A stretch of 64,000 nucleotides of DNA. Source: an uncultured Litoreibacter sp. (GTDB lineage: Bacteria; Pseudomonadota; Alphaproteobacteria; Rhodobacterales; Rhodobacteraceae). Of the stretch, positions 244 to 55,267 are shown in pieces. The stretch lies in the NCBI GenBank assembly GCA_947493265.1, contig CANLQL010000003.1, positions 186,001-250,000 of the forward strand, in the 5' to 3' direction. The notes beneath the pieces are model-generated. The model was not told the origin of the DNA, made no database searches, and saw only the letters and a program-made list of their open reading frames with translations. Both the position numbers and the translations under genes were made by a program. Within the stretch, counting starts at the first letter, position 1, and each line of letters begins with the position of its first letter.

Positions 244-506
244 CGTATTTGTGTCCCGATCCGTTGCCCGGACGGTTCATCCGGGTCGCGCCTTGCTCGC
301 GCTTCGTTCCTGTTTATTGGCCTGCCTCCGCGGACCGTCTTATCGTTTCGGGAACGGATATCCTCTGTCTGCCGCGCACACACGCTTTGCAGGCATTGGC
401 ACCTGACGGTGCTCGTTTGCTATGAATTTCGTCCGTCCCACACACCAACCAGTTTTGATACTAGATATGGTGCCGCTCTACCGAGCACCCACAACCTGAC
501 GTATCG
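244..506 (-). promoter_or_regulatory. Long structured 5' leader and control region of nrdJ
   Basis: About 260 bases upstream of nrdJ contain no credible gene. On the nrdJ strand they include a 6-bp hairpin (arms 267-272 and 280-285, loop 273-279) about two dozen bases before the start codon. Further upstream lies an NrdR-like operator pair. A TTGACG element at 517-522 on the minus strand could be a -35 box, but I see no good -10 partner, so the transcription start is unplaced. I looked for the conserved B12-box of a cobalamin riboswitch and did not see it. Confidence 0.4.
458..504 (-). promoter_or_regulatory. Putative NrdR operator pair upstream of nrdJ
   Basis: On the nrdJ strand, 458-473 reads GCACCATATCTAGTAT. 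It agrees at about 13 of 16 positions with the proteobacterial NrdR-box consensus as I remember it (ACACwATATCTwGTGT). A second, degenerate copy (about 9 of 16, with ATAC and TTGTG conserved) sits at 489-504, exactly 31 bp centre to centre. That three-turn spacing is typical of NrdR box pairs. NrdR represses ribonucleotide reductase genes in response to ATP/dATP. Confidence 0.5.
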
Positions 507-812
507 GCCCCTAGCCCGTCAACGGTTTTATTTTGAATTGCGAAGGTTTTTTGACATTGACTGGCACCCCAAAATTTGCGCGGCGCGACAGACTCAAAAA
601 TGAAGATTTTCTTAATGCGAAAACCGGATCAGAAAAAACCTGTTGAACACTGGGGGGTTAGCTCACGGACCTGTGAACGCGTATTAACTATGAATGGGAT
701 TCGGGTCTGAGAATTCGAATTCAAAGGCGCACTAATTGCGTCCTGAGAATTCTTGAAATTCTTTTCCGCCGCGGAAGCGGTGCTGCAAAAATGTAATGGT
801 GGAGGATTTAGA
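507..812. other. Intergenic stretch with no recognisable gene
   Basis: This AT-richer spacer lies between the nrdJ control region and tRNA-Pro. I see no supported coding region. It holds a direct repeat CTGAGAATTC at 707-716 and 743-752 (36 bp apart), the first running into a GAATTCGAATTC palindrome (711-722). Near the tRNA 3' side there is a TTCCG/CGGAA hairpin without a T-run. Either strand could hold promoters, but nothing is decisive. Confidence 0.3.
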
Positions 813-31310: not shown

Positions 31311-32864
31311 CTACCGTCCTTTGAACAGGCTGCCCATCACGCCCCGCACAATAGCTGTCCCGGCCTTGGTCCCGATCGACCGCATCATCGACTTGGCGAA
31401 CGCCGTACCAACGGAATCCCCACGTCGGGAAGTTTTCTTACGCGATGTTGACCGGGTTACTTTCTTTCCGGTGTAGCGGCGTGCGGTCTGGTATTCCCGC
31501 TCGCGGGCTTCCAGCTCCTCTTCCCGTTTCTCTGCTTCTTCGGCTTCCTTGGCGGCTTTTTCCGCACGTTTCTGAAGCATCTCAAACGCCGAATCTCGAT
31601 CCAGAGTTTCTTCGTACTTGCCCGCGACCGGCGAAGTATTGATCACCGCTTGTCTCTCAATCGGCGTGATTGGCCCAAGCTGGGAGGATGGTGGGCGGAT
31701 CAACGTCCGCTCTGAAATTCCGGGCATGCCTTTCTTGATCAAGAACGACGTCACCGCTTCACCGACACCAACTTCCTTGATCGCATCTTCCACATCAAAC
31801 CGCGGGTTCGGCCGGTACGTATCTGCCGCCCGGCGCAGGTCTTTTTGGTCCTTCGGTGTGAACGCACGCAGCGCGTGCTGGATCCTGTTGCCCATCTGGC
31901 CCAGAATATCTTCGGGCACATCTGAAGGTTGTTGCGTGATGAAGTAAACACCCACCCCTTTGGACCGGATCAAACGCGCGACCTGTTCGACCTTATCAAC
32001 CAGTGCATCCGGCGCCCCATCAAAGAGCAAATGCGCCTCGTCAAAGAAGAACACGAATTTCGGCTTATCGGGGTCGCCGACTTCTGGCAGTGTCTCGAAC
32101 AGCTCGCTGAGCATCCACAACAGGAACGTGGCATAAAGGCGCGGTGCGCTCATCAACTTGTCCGCGGCCAGAATGTTGATCTGTCCCCGACCGGACGCGT
32201 CGGTGGTAAACATGTCCTCCAGATCAAGCGCTGGTTCACCGAAGAATTCTGCAGCACCCTGGTTTTCTAGAACCAGCAAACGGCGTTGGATCGCCCCAAC
32301 GGATGCTGAAGATACGAACCCATACCGCAGCGCCAACTGTTTGGCGTTCTGTCCGATCCATACCAGAAGCGATTGCAGGTCCTTCAGGTCAAGAAGCGGC
32401 AGCGCTTCTTCATCGGCCACACGGAACGCAATGTTCAAAATACCTTCCTGCGCCTCGCTAAGTTCCAGCAGGCGGGACAGAAGCAGCGGACCCATTTCGG
32501 AGACAGTTGTGCGGACAGGATGCCCTTTCTCCCCGTACAAGTCCCAAAACGTGACCGGGAAAGCCTCGTAGGTGTAGTCATCGAAACCGATTTTTCCGGC
32601 ACGCTCCATAAACGCGCCGTGCAGTTTGTGGCTTTCGGACCCCGCTGCGGCCAGACCGGACAGGTCCCCTTTCACATCAGACATGAAGACCGGCACACCA
32701 GCTTTTGACAGACCTTCGGCCAGAATTTGCAGGGTGACGGTTTTACCTGTCCCTGTCGCCCCGGCAATCAGACCATGACGGTTGGCATATTTGAGCAAAA
32801 GGTATTGCTTCTCCGCATAGTCTTCACCGCCGCCGCCTGCAAAAATACTGTCTTCTTGTGTCAT
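31311..32864 (-). CDS. HerA-like ATPase (DUF853 / YjgR family)
   Basis: This 517-residue protein has a Walker [15 protein letters not shown] near residue 36, a Walker [11 protein letters not shown] and the conserved [11 protein letters not shown] and [23 protein letters not shown] segments of the DUF853 HerA-like family. The C-terminal 90 residues form an acidic/basic coiled coil ([16 protein letters not shown]) ending in a basic tail. Function is not established; HerA relatives are hexameric DNA translocases. I use ATG 32864; the preceding TTG codon is a less likely start. Confidence 0.85.
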
Positions 32865-32944
32865 CAATCTTTCCCGCGTTGTCTGGGCCCCACTTCCCGT
32901 TGGGCCTGAACATACATTGTTAATACTTCTATGCCAGAGTGATT

Positions 32945-33031
32945 GCGTTGCCGCGAGCCATCTGCTTGCTGGCGGCTAACTTCCTCCCTGTCTGACTAGG
33001 CCGTGTCATCTTGGCACGGCCATTTTTTTTT
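32945..33031 (+). ncRNA. Candidate small RNA 1 with anti-Shine-Dalgarno motif
   Basis: A 5' hairpin (32950-32976; arms GCC..GCCA and TGGC-GGC) is followed by an unpaired stretch carrying CTTCCTCCC at 32980-32988, complementary to ribosome-binding sites. A terminator with a perfect 7-bp stem (GGCCGTG 32999-33005, CACGGCC 33015-33021) and nine T closes the unit. This hairpin, C/U-rich single strand, terminator layout is typical of alphaproteobacterial anti-SD sRNAs (CcsR and 'cuckoo' types). No clear promoter was found, so the 5' end is approximate. Confidence 0.55.
32999..33031 (+). terminator. Rho-independent terminator of candidate sRNA 1
   Basis: A perfect 7-bp GC-rich stem with a 9-base loop is followed by A and nine consecutive T. 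No plus-strand gene precedes it within 1.6 kb, which points to a short non-coding transcript. Orientation is plus only, because there is no matching T-run on the other strand. Confidence 0.85.
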
Positions 33032-33101
33032 CGAACGTTGCCAATTTCTTGTGGGCGGACCTTCGACCAATCACTTTTTGTGAATCCATCCATAAACATA
33101 G

Positions 33102-33130
33102 TTGACCCGAATTTTTCCTTGCCCTATCGT
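33102..33130 (+). promoter_or_regulatory. Sigma-70-type promoter of candidate sRNA 2
   Basis: TTGACC at 33102-33107 and TATCGT at 33125-33130 are separated by 17 bp. The expected start is an A near 33137. The nearest downstream gene (IalB family) is 270 bp away, beyond a terminator. Confidence 0.6.
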
Positions 33131-33136
33131 CTGCTC

Positions 33137-33198
33137 AATAAGTCGGCTAGTCCGACAGGGAGAGAAATTGAAAGAGGGTCCTCAACAGGCCCTTTTTC
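33137..33198 (+). ncRNA. Candidate small RNA 2, partly complementary to sRNA 1
   Basis: Between the promoter and a terminator lies a stretch of about 60 nt with no coding capacity. It folds a 5-bp hairpin (GTCGG 33142-33146, CCGAC 33152-33156, loop CTAGT), then a purine-rich single strand beginning AGGGAGAG, then the terminator. Positions 33147-33162 are the reverse complement of sRNA 1 positions 32984-32999 at 15 of 16 bases. It might instead be a leader of the IalB gene with early termination. Confidence 0.5.
33172..33198 (+). terminator. Rho-independent terminator of candidate sRNA 2
   Basis: The stem AGGG-(T)-CCT / AGG-CCCT (33175-33182 and 33187-33193) has one bulged T and a CAAC loop, followed by a run of T. 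Flanking AAA/TTT pairs can extend it. A second GGGCCC-T5 element lies 20 bp downstream and may be a partial duplication. Confidence 0.75.
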
Positions 33199-33408
33199 TA
33201 TTTTTAGGGCCCTTTTTCATCAACTTACACTCAACAGAACAAGCAAAGTCTTTTGCTTAGTTTGAACGCGCGCGTCTCGCGGTGCAGCCCCTGATTGGCA
33301 ACAAACTGTTCATCGCGCACTCGTGTGAAAATCCTACCTGACATGCCCCTAGCAGCATGTTAAATGAGGGCAACTGGAGTCCGCTCCAACCCATATAACG
33401 GATCAAAA

Positions 33409-34050
33409 ATGTTCAATCAGTTCAAGACCTTTGCCGCTGTTATTGCCCTGAGCTTTGCAGTGCCTGCCTTCGCCCAAGAAACAACAACTGAGGCGGAAGA
33501 ACCCGCAGCAACGCAAGAGGCCGCAGAAACAGAAGCACCTGCGACAGCGGAAGAACGCACAGACGGCTTGTCCACCGGCGCAGAGGTGAGCGACGTAGGC
33601 AAGACTTATATCCGGTCAGATCACGGCGATTGGGAATTGCGCTGCATCAAAGCCCCCGAAGGTCAGGATGACATTTGCCAGCTGTACCAACTGTTGGAAG
33701 ACCAGCAAGGAAACTCTGTCGCTGAGATCAATTTGTTCAGCTTGCCTGCCGAAGACCCGCTGGCCGCTGGCGCAACCATCGTAACCCCGCTCGGCACGCT
33801 ATTGACCAAACAGCTTCGTTTGTCCGTCGACGGGGCGAATGCGAAAGTCTATCCGTTTACCTTCTGCATGGAGCAAGGGTGTTTCTCGCGGATTGGTTTG
33901 GCCGATGCGGACATCGCCAGCATGAAAGCCGGCTCGCAAGCGACAATCGTGATTGTGCCTGCGCAAGCACCCGACCAAACGGTCCAGCTGAAAGTGTCTC
34001 TGACTGGCTTTACAGCAGGCTTCAACGCAGTGACCGAAGCGTCCAAGTAA
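33409..34050 (+). CDS. IalB-family (invasion-associated locus B) periplasmic protein
   Basis: This 213-residue secreted protein has a clean signal peptide (FKTFAAVIALSFAVPAFAQ) and an Ala/Glu/Thr-rich spacer (about residues 21-55). The IalB domain follows, with DWELRCIKAPEGQDDICQLYQ and PFTFCMEQGCFSRIGL, which supply the paired cysteines of the family. The role of IalB proteins outside Bartonella is not established. I start at ATG 33409, directly before the signal peptide. A GAAA-tetraloop terminator follows. Confidence 0.88.
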   Translation: MFNQFKTFAAVIALSFAVPAFAQETTTEAEEPAATQEAAETEAPATAEERTDGLSTGAEVSDVGKTYIRSDHGDWELRCIKAPEGQDDICQLYQLLEDQQGNSVAEINLFSLPAEDPLAAGATIVTPLGTLLTKQLRLSVDGANAKVYPFTFCMEQGCFSRIGLADADIASMKAGSQATIVIVPAQAPDQTVQLKVSLTGFTAGFNAVTEASK

Positions 34051-54220: not shown

Positions 54221-55267
54221 ATGGGACGCTTCATTCTGCGCCGTCTAGGCGTGATGCTTTTGACAGCACTCTGCCTGACTTTCATCGTCTTCTGGCTGAC
54301 AAACCTTTATCCGAACCTCGAAAAACTGGCGAAGACGCAAGGCAACTTCCGGATGTCAGACGAAGCTGTGACAAGCTACCTGACACGCGAAGGGTATCTG
54401 CAGCCCCTGCCCGTCAAATACGGCCAGTGGCTGGGTATTTTGCCGGGGCATGTTTTCACAGATGACGAAGGCAAGACGACCGGACGCTGCATCGCGCGCG
54501 AACAATTGCCAGAAGATGCGCCCCGCTTTTGTGGCGTTTTGCAAGGCGACTGGGGGTACTCAACAGTCTTCAAGGATGAAGCCAGCAACATTATCGGCAA
54601 GCGGTTGGGCCTGACAGGATGGCTGATGCTGGCGGTGATGTGCGTCATGGTTCCAAGCGCGTTGATCCTTGGTGTTCTGGCCGGGATGCGAGAAGGTTCA
54701 CGCACCGACAGAACGTTATCGACATTCTCCATCGCCTCAACGGCGACACCGGAATACGTTTCGGGGGTTATCTTTATTGCGGTCTTTGCCTCTTCGGCCT
54801 TTGGGTTGAAGTGGTTCAAAGGGTCCGCGACGTCTGCGATGGACGACATTACATGGGCAAACTTCACCCTGCCCGTCATCACCATTGCGCTATACGGGAT
54901 GGGCTACATCGCCCGGATGACCCGCGCCTCGATGACCGAGGTGATGACCGCGCAGTACATTCGAACGGCCCGCCTGAAAGGCGTCAGCTTTCCCAACATC
55001 GTCATGAAGCACGCGCTTCGGAATGCGCTGATCGCGCCGTTCACAGTGATCATGCTGCAATTCCCATGGTTGTTGAATGGCGTTGTCATCGTCGAGACCT
55101 TGTTCAACTACAAAGGGTTCGGCTGGGTGTTGGTGCAGGCCGCAGGCAATAACGACATTGATCTGCTTCTAGGCTGCTCGGTGGTTGCCGTTTTCGTGGT
55201 TCTGGTGACACAGCTGATTTCCGATATCGGCTACGTGTTCCTCAACCCTCGTATCAGAATAGCTTGA
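54221..55267 (+). CDS. ABC transporter permease, OppB/DppB type with periplasmic insertion
   Basis: This 348-residue inner-membrane permease has the usual N-terminal span (LRRLGVMLLTALCLTFIVFW), five more spans, and the EAA loop around EVMTAQYIRTARLKGVSFPNIVMKHALRNALIAP. The first periplasmic loop is enlarged by about 36 residues (72-107) and has two cysteines, Cys90 and Cys104, which could form a disulfide. The second permease gene follows after 13 bp. Confidence 0.9.
   Translation: MGRFILRRLGVMLLTALCLTFIVFWLTNLYPNLEKLAKTQGNFRMSDEAVTSYLTREGYLQPLPVKYGQWLGILPGHVFTDDEGKTTGRCIAREQLPEDAPRFCGVLQGDWGYSTVFKDEASNIIGKRLGLTGWLMLAVMCVMVPSALILGVLAGMREGSRTDRTLSTFSIASTATPEYVSGVIFIAVFASSAFGLKWFKGSATSAMDDITWANFTLPVITIALYGMGYIARMTRASMTEVMTAQYIRTARLKGVSFPNIVMKHALRNALIAPFTVIMLQFPWLLNGVVIVETLFNYKGFGWVLVQAAGNNDIDLLLGCSVVAVFVVLVTQLISDIGYVFLNPRIRIA

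Follow-up and report, generated by a model that had tools for sequence, protein, structure and literature searches.

Introduction

The nearest described system to the locus presented here is that of CrfA, a sponge sRNA of Caulobacter crescentus which, in the parts of the report covered here, sponges the alphaR8 sRNAs SisA-D via a UUUCCUCCCU core (PMC12559287). The same parts describe the alphaR8 RNAs as carrying this core single-stranded between a hairpin and the terminator (PMC12559287). A second system is StsR (RSs0827) of R. sphaeroides, a 72-nt sRNA that is induced by RpoHI/RpoHII and binds the sRNA UpsM (PMC8307010), and the covered portions of two reports give UpsM and the rpoE mRNA as its targets (PMC8307010, PMC11354728). 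SorX and SorY have been described in the same species (PMC9438474, PMC8307010); for an stsR mutant, the covered text states at one point that the level of SorY is slightly lower and at another that it is increased (PMC8307010). The literature searched, as far as its covered text extends, does not give the genomic location of StsR, and its titles and abstract beginnings, together with full texts covered in part, name no sponge for SorX or SorY.

Here we describe a pair of adjacent candidate sRNAs, sRNA1 and sRNA2, in a 64-kb stretch of DNA from an uncultured Litoreibacter sp. (the window), and we propose that sRNA2 is probably a stand-alone sponge for a small family of anti-Shine-Dalgarno (anti-SD) sRNAs, comprising its neighbour sRNA1 and unlinked SorX-like and SorY-like sRNAs. 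The likeness to CrfA, which is one of description and not of CrfA sequence, lies in a sponge that titrates several sibling sRNAs by pairing its G/A-rich stem-loop to their anti-SD core (5'-UUUCCUCCCU), as the covered text has it. Unlike CrfA, the putative sponge gene of Rhodobacteraceae adjoins one of its predicted target sRNAs, its match continues beyond the core across GUCCGAC and the loop, and its other predicted targets are SorX- and SorY-like. StsR binds an sRNA, as sRNA2 is predicted to do, and its 72 nt would fit the predicted length of sRNA2, both ends of which are estimated; it differs in that UpsM was not a predicted partner of sRNA2 in either genome tried, a comparison in which the ends of UpsM were estimated and cofolding can miss a real pairing. 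The locus of StsR is presumably RSP_0827, as read off the name RSs0827.

Results

Two candidate sRNAs with complementary segments share one intergenic region

The window is part of contig C3 of a 3.5-Mb genome. The intergenic region 32868-33402 has a HerA-family ATPase gene on its left (minus strand) and an IalB-family gene on its right (plus strand), followed by glnE. The features of the locus, in window coordinates, are as follows.

31311..32867, minus strand: HerA-family ATPase gene (PF05872; Pfam HerA_C, 753 bits), the divergent left neighbour and comparison anchor
32944..33030, plus strand: sRNA1, predicted transcript (from fold, recurrence and sub-threshold Rfam matches; ends estimated)
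32947..32976, plus strand: 5' hairpin of sRNA1 (predicted fold)
32984..32999, plus strand: anti-SD core and predicted pairing site of sRNA1, complementary to 33147-33162
32999..33030, plus strand: intrinsic terminator of sRNA1 (10-bp stem and T run, giving a U-tract)
33102..33130, plus strand: predicted sRNA2 promoter, sigma-70-like, TTGACC-17-TATCGT (conserved spacing motif upstream of sRNA2)
33134..33205, plus strand: sRNA2, predicted transcript of about 72 nt (from recurrence in anchored regions; ends estimated)
33142..33156, plus strand: 5' hairpin of sRNA2, GTCGG-CTAGT-CCGAC (predicted fold of the 72-nt transcript)
33147..33162, plus strand: putative decoy segment of sRNA2 (hairpin loop, 3' stem arm and purine strand AGGGAG), complement of the sRNA1 core
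33170..33205, plus strand: intrinsic terminator of sRNA2 (11-bp stem and T-rich tail)
33409..34050, plus strand: IalB-family protein gene, the right neighbour (Pfam PF06776, 132 bits)

A first, sequence-only reading of this DNA had claimed reverse complementarity, with one position excepted, between the segments 32984-32999 and 33147-33162, and we found the same 15 of 16 matching positions at those coordinates. The two arms are inverted on the same strand with a gap of 147 nt. When the whole window was scanned for inverted repeats with arms of at least 15 nt lying within 250 nt of each other, this pair was the most complementary of 12 (94%), the other 11 being 76-88% complementary. Independent arithmetic also agrees with the earlier estimate that such a match arises by chance about once in 5000 stretches of about 180 bp; over the full 64 kb, however, chance alone should give about 0.15 such pairs within 200 bp, and the statistic from a single genome can therefore only be suggestive. 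Counting the pattern at up to 3 mismatches was uninformative, with two or more matches also found in 26 of 100 shuffles.

sRNA1 has the layout of an anti-SD sRNA and is a relative of SorX

The segment 32946-33033 folds into a 5' hairpin, an open core and a terminator (z -5.0). Between hairpin and terminator lies the open linker ACUUCCUCCCUGUCUGACUAG, which holds ACUUCCUCCCUG, 9 of the 10 alphaR8 core letters, in the single-stranded position of the alphaR8 layout. Like SorX, SorY and suhB/mmgR, sRNA1 has a CUCCCUG core placed between a 5' hairpin and a terminator; alphaR8 is here taken to be equal to suhB/mmgR. Among the 97 genomes in which both RNAs were called, a predicted hairpin ended no more than 10 nt from the sRNA1 core in all 97 (an uncontrolled count).

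These three families were also the best Rfam matches of sRNA1 in the window, all below their gathering scores: SorX (RF02784) gave 32.0 bits against 46.6, suhB/mmgR (RF00519) 28.3 against 41, and SorY (RF02651) 26.2 against 111. We therefore file sRNA1 as a relative of these families and not as a member. The copy at the sRNA1 position of another genome (G026) reached 48.6 bits with the SorX model, which makes sRNA1 a relative, though its window copy is not filed as SorX. The Rfam 15 scan placed no family at its cut-off on sRNA1 or sRNA2 in the window, and sRNA2 had no Rfam match with an E-value below 0.9. Elsewhere in the window, at 54844-55023 on the minus strand, the scan matched Cis52_sRNA (RF02647, a Ruegeria sRNA) with 93.8 bits against a gathering score of 56.

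Upstream of sRNA1, at 32910-32945, a block of the type ACAATACATTGTTAACC...TGCCAGT appeared conserved by eye, at the same place in loci L002-L027 of our comparison. This block may be the sRNA1 promoter or the divergent HerA promoter.

sRNA2 is predicted to be transcribed separately

A TTGAC-N16..19-TANNNT motif stands upstream of sRNA2 in 106 of the 113 genomes in which sRNA2 was called; none of the 781 control windows taken further upstream contains it. With its conserved promoter and the terminator found in the window, sRNA2 is predicted to be a separately transcribed RNA. Another possibility, raised in the sequence-only reading, is that both arms form one long hairpin within a single transcript, as their inverted orientation on one strand at a distance of 147 nt might suggest. 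This did not hold up against the strong terminator after the first arm, the conserved promoter before the second, and an arm spacing that ranges from 97 to 364 nt across genomes, and we consider such a hairpin very unlikely.

The predicted 72-nt transcript folds into the GUCGG/CCGAC hairpin and a terminator. The hairpin is present in this fold, for which no z-score was computed, and in that of 33114-33223 (z -2.1); in the best fold of 33114-33205 (z -3.2), which starts 20 nt further upstream, the hairpin arm is paired differently. Across the 113 genomes, the stem is kept by two-sided changes in 5 (GCCGG/CCGGC in 3, GCTGG/CCAGC in 1 and ATCGG/CCGAT in 1) and by a G-U pair in 18. sRNA2's own hairpin engages about half of the decoy segment, which counts against the sponge reading.

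The purine strand of sRNA2, AGGGAGAGAAA, is followed in the window by a TTG at a plausible distance, as it would be if sRNA2 were a short leader or a small coding mRNA with AGGGAG as a real ribosome-binding site. The other genomes have no common start codon there (by eye, uncounted) and sRNA2's own terminator follows directly, so that such a leader or coding role is most improbable.

Conservation is concentrated in the two complementary cores

For comparison across genera, the HerA protein was used as the anchor, because genomes are then not chosen by an sRNA motif. Searching 150 family genomes, one per genus, gave 128 HerA matches at E<=1e-80, counting the window's own genome. Eight of these were omitted (seven among the lowest-scoring, one at a contig edge), and the 650 nt upstream of HerA from 119 genomes plus the window made up a set of 120 regions. 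When the DNA of the whole region was used as the query, 27 of 61 genomes gave a match, again with the own genome counted, and most of the loci inspected repeat the order HerA, sRNA1, sRNA2. A further scan, with a pattern that fixed most sRNA2 letters, gave at least 120 loci and served for names and context alone.

sRNA2 was called in 113 of the 120 regions, sRNA1 in 100 and both in 97, while the same rules applied to 360 shuffled regions produced 25 sRNA2 calls and 7 sRNA1 calls. At two motif errors or fewer, sRNA2 was found in 109 of the 120 real regions against 4 of the 360 shuffled ones. The reverse strand gave 73 sRNA2 calls and 16 sRNA1 calls in the 120 regions; we judged it no valid null for sRNA2 because the reverse complement of sRNA1 resembles sRNA2, and the shuffles were used instead. 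A chance origin of the arms was considered and rejected, because most of the sampled genera have both elements again in this position, and few of the shuffles give a call.

Conservation is concentrated in the two complementary cores. The sRNA1 core had a mean column homozygosity of 0.96 and the decoy segment of sRNA2 one of 0.91. The neighbouring parts measured had 0.32 (5' part of sRNA1), 0.36 and 0.32 (downstream side of the sRNA2 motif) and 0.26 (spacer). Part of this contrast is ascertainment, because the motifs served to find the RNAs; regular-expression searches inflate apparent conservation.

The same comparison bears on the proposal of the sequence-only reading that both RNAs descend from one inverted duplication. 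That the arms are inverted copies is the sole point in favour of a functionless relic of such an event, which we regard as barely credible, for the core is conserved across genera and the measured surroundings are not, the flanking structures differ, and sRNA1-like cores occur at unlinked loci. A common duplication as such was likewise not borne out by the two architectures, which differ outside the core, or by the relatives of sRNA1 at other loci.

Pairing is largely kept where the arms vary

Duplex energies were computed for 95 genomes under a looser calling rule than that of the 120-region count, and two of the sRNA1 cores used look spurious. The native sRNA1:sRNA2 duplexes averaged -36.3 kcal/mol compared to -35.8 kcal/mol when partners were permuted among genomes, with 0 of 5000 permutations as good; with shuffled sRNA1 segments the mean was -17.6 kcal/mol.

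At most varying duplex positions, a standard or G-U pair was kept in the 97 genomes with both RNAs. A purine of sRNA2 (A in 56, G in 41) lies opposite U in all 97; the first position after it holds C in 93 or U in 4, opposite G in 97; the second is A in 80 or G in 17, opposite U in 95; and the third is G in 96, opposite C or U in 96. The central position is unpaired in most genomes, the sRNA1 column there (n=97) being A in 65, a gap in 13, T in 5 and a pairing G in 14.

An exchange of ACTT in sRNA1 with AAGT in sRNA2 was the clearest covariation in raw counts (9/11 versus 6/86, Fisher 1.7e-7). We placed it on a HerA tree of 41 rows, which took in the full 17 that carry either form, a further 23 and the window. 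The exchange fell mostly in one clade, with just 5 and 3 changes, and the independent-pairs test of ACTT/AAGT covariation on this tree was not significant. Covariation was thus rejected as an independent proof of pairing, its raw counts being strong but phylogenetically not independent. Judged by non-compensatory change, which the sequence-only reading had named as refuting the pairing model, the outcome was mixed. Pairing is retained at most of the positions that vary; on the other side, the central mismatch persists in most genomes, and in 6 of the 15 genomes whose sRNA2 has the AAGT form, sRNA1 does not show the corresponding change.

sRNA2 is also complementary to unlinked SorX-like and SorY-like sRNAs

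The strict 16-nt complement of the sRNA2 decoy, at 2 mismatches or fewer, occurs at 5 sites in the window's own 3.5-Mb genome, and a backward control pattern at 1. In addition to sRNA2 itself and sRNA1 (one mismatch), these sites are as follows.

C3:515882: SorY-like sRNA, one mismatch, a G-U pair
C1:86202: SorX-like sRNA, two mismatches, one of them a G-U pair
C3:115506-115521 (genome G000), minus strand: further complement site, two mismatches

A degenerate form of the pattern, allowing up to 3 mismatches, gave 146 matches against 262 in its backward control, so we used its top ranks alone and repeated the test without degeneracy. Under the SorX model, which has a cut-off of 46.6, the two unlinked sRNAs reached 76.7 and 63.0 bits, and we read the one at 63.0 bits as SorY-like from its core and terminator.

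Cofolding with sRNA2 gave gains of -17.3 for sRNA1, -21.4 for the SorX-like and -18.8 for the SorY-like sRNA. Shuffle means were -5.1, -5.4 and -4.2, respectively (sd 2.6), and the strongest of 200 shuffles each reached -14.9, -12.9 and -13.0, none matching its native value. With G-U pairs included, the SorX-like and SorY-like sRNAs are as good a fit to sRNA2 as sRNA1 is, or a better one. sRNA2 is therefore complementary to the seed of at least one sRNA, one mark of a sponge, in the cofolds as well as in the genome-wide match set, and the complementarity is kept across genera. In the own genome, neither the UpsM leader (gain -4.1 versus -3.3 in shuffles, sd 1.9) nor the CcsR array cofolded with sRNA2 above shuffles.

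These matches also bear on whether sRNA2 is an ordinary trans-acting sRNA with its own mRNA targets, its anti-SD match coming from a shared ribosome-binding-site-like sequence. AGGGAG is indeed a Shine-Dalgarno-like string, but the complementarity extends past it through GUCCGAC and the loop, and three of the four full-complement sites outside sRNA2 (at 2 mismatches or fewer) are anti-SD sRNAs, which leaves this explanation unlikely, though deserving some weight.

Two further elements in the own genome were seen by eye or in weak matches. Near 717.97 kb of C3 (locus L169 of genome G000) lies a further CTCCTCCCTGATG element with a weak SorX match of 20.6 bits, perhaps a further anti-SD sRNA. 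Near 555 kb of C2 (locus L153, about 360-760, minus strand), four CCTCCTCCC-type motifs lie beside the mraZ leader with a possible short ORF adjacent, a layout that by eye resembles that of ccaF1-CcsR1-4 and UpsM in R. sphaeroides, the names being taken from papers.

The SorX search found a match in 94 of 100 genomes, and the best 30 SorX copies of the family search all keep CCTCCCTGTTGGA, the GG of which pairs with the central C of sRNA2, a partner missing in most sRNA1 copies. The duplex of SorX with native sRNA2 was stronger than that of sRNA1 in 18 of 28 genomes (means -37.9 and -37.5). Sixteen of the 20 genomes lacking an sRNA1 call keep sRNA2 at two motif errors or fewer; ten of these 16 were in the SorX search, and all ten had a match at E<=0.001. 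Read most simply, sRNA2 would serve the anti-SD family as a whole and not just sRNA1.

The same network of three could also run in the reverse direction, with sRNA1 as a decoy that titrates sRNA2 and lets the SorX-like and SorY-like sRNAs escape it. sRNA1 is encoded beside sRNA2, which fits SorX-type RNAs as well or slightly better, as such a decoy would have it; however, sRNA1 shows every layout feature of an active anti-SD sRNA (5' hairpin, open CUUCCUCCCU core and terminator) and goes uncalled in 16 genomes that keep sRNA2. We hold this reversal to be decidedly unlikely and retain sRNA2 as the putative sponge.

The pair is kept, with a weaker signal, in an R. sphaeroides-like genome

In one R. 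sphaeroides-like genome (G091), the SorX match starts at C4:2598225 and a weaker SorX-model match lies at C4:1632636. The 5' ends published for strain 2.4.1, in the covered part of the source, are 2,598,224 for SorX and 1,632,642 for SorY (PMC6238624). As these coordinates fit and a MraZ-like frame (by eye) follows the expected UpsM position, we take this genome for R. sphaeroides 2.4.1.

HerA had no match there at E<=1e-80. An sRNA1-sRNA2 pair nonetheless lies at C4:1426580, between catalase-like and IalB-like frames (by eye), with the core CTCCCTGAACTGGACTGGCC in sRNA1 and with AGTCGGCCAGTCCGACAGGGAG in sRNA2, the latter RNA having been located by a promoter-plus-hairpin pattern. The catalase-like frame (locus L405, C4 near 1.4266 Mb) takes the place of HerA, and both sRNAs and IalB keep their order.

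The predicted pairings in this genome were weaker relative to their controls. The sRNA1:sRNA2 gain of -15.6 was not clearly above shuffles (-10.9, sd 3.2, minimum -21.4). SorX and SorY each gained -19.2 with sRNA2, against -8.7 (sd 3.3, minimum -19.7) and -9.6 (sd 2.9, minimum -20.0) in shuffles, at least 1 of 200 shuffles being stronger in each case. The signal is thus weaker here than in the window's own genome. UpsM did no better than shuffles as a partner of sRNA2 (-5.3 versus -6.5, sd 2.8). The ChrR model TIGR02451, our route to a test of rpoE for a possible identity of sRNA2 with StsR, had no match in this genome; absence of ChrR is not expected in R. sphaeroides.

Discussion

The sequence-only reading had taken the two RNAs for a sponge or antisense pair. 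The conservation of both arms, the predicted binding and the promoter and terminator signals between and after the arms support that reading, but its partner set was incomplete, since the SorX-like and SorY-like sRNAs are predicted to belong to it as well. In the mechanism that we propose, the loop, the 3' stem arm and the AGGGAG strand of sRNA2 would mimic the ribosome-binding site of an mRNA plus a specific extension, and this decoy would pair over about 15-17 bp with the open anti-SD core of sRNA1, of the SorX-like and of the SorY-like sRNA. Synthesis of sRNA2 would then cover the anti-SD core and release the target mRNAs, and the duplex would perhaps decay. Expression, help from Hfq, pairing in vivo and the direction of regulation are steps that we infer.

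A wider claim makes sRNA2 a single off-switch shared by the CUCCCUGU-type anti-SD sRNAs of Rhodobacteraceae (sRNA1, SorX-like and SorY-like) in a family-wide sponge network, and here the case for and against seems to us evenly balanced. sRNA1 and its relatives, the predicted targets of sRNA2, are putative regulators of stress responses and nutrient uptake. If true, sRNA2 would add to the SorX and SorY stress responses a layer that we did not find in the literature searched, and a sponge and one of its targets would form a tandem gene pair. If one RNA neutralises SorX, SorY and a third sibling, the response would have a built-in release, and the phenotypes of these sRNAs would have to be read differently. 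A tandem sRNA-sponge pair in most genera sampled would also offer a large natural set of variants for the study of how an sRNA and its sponge evolve together.
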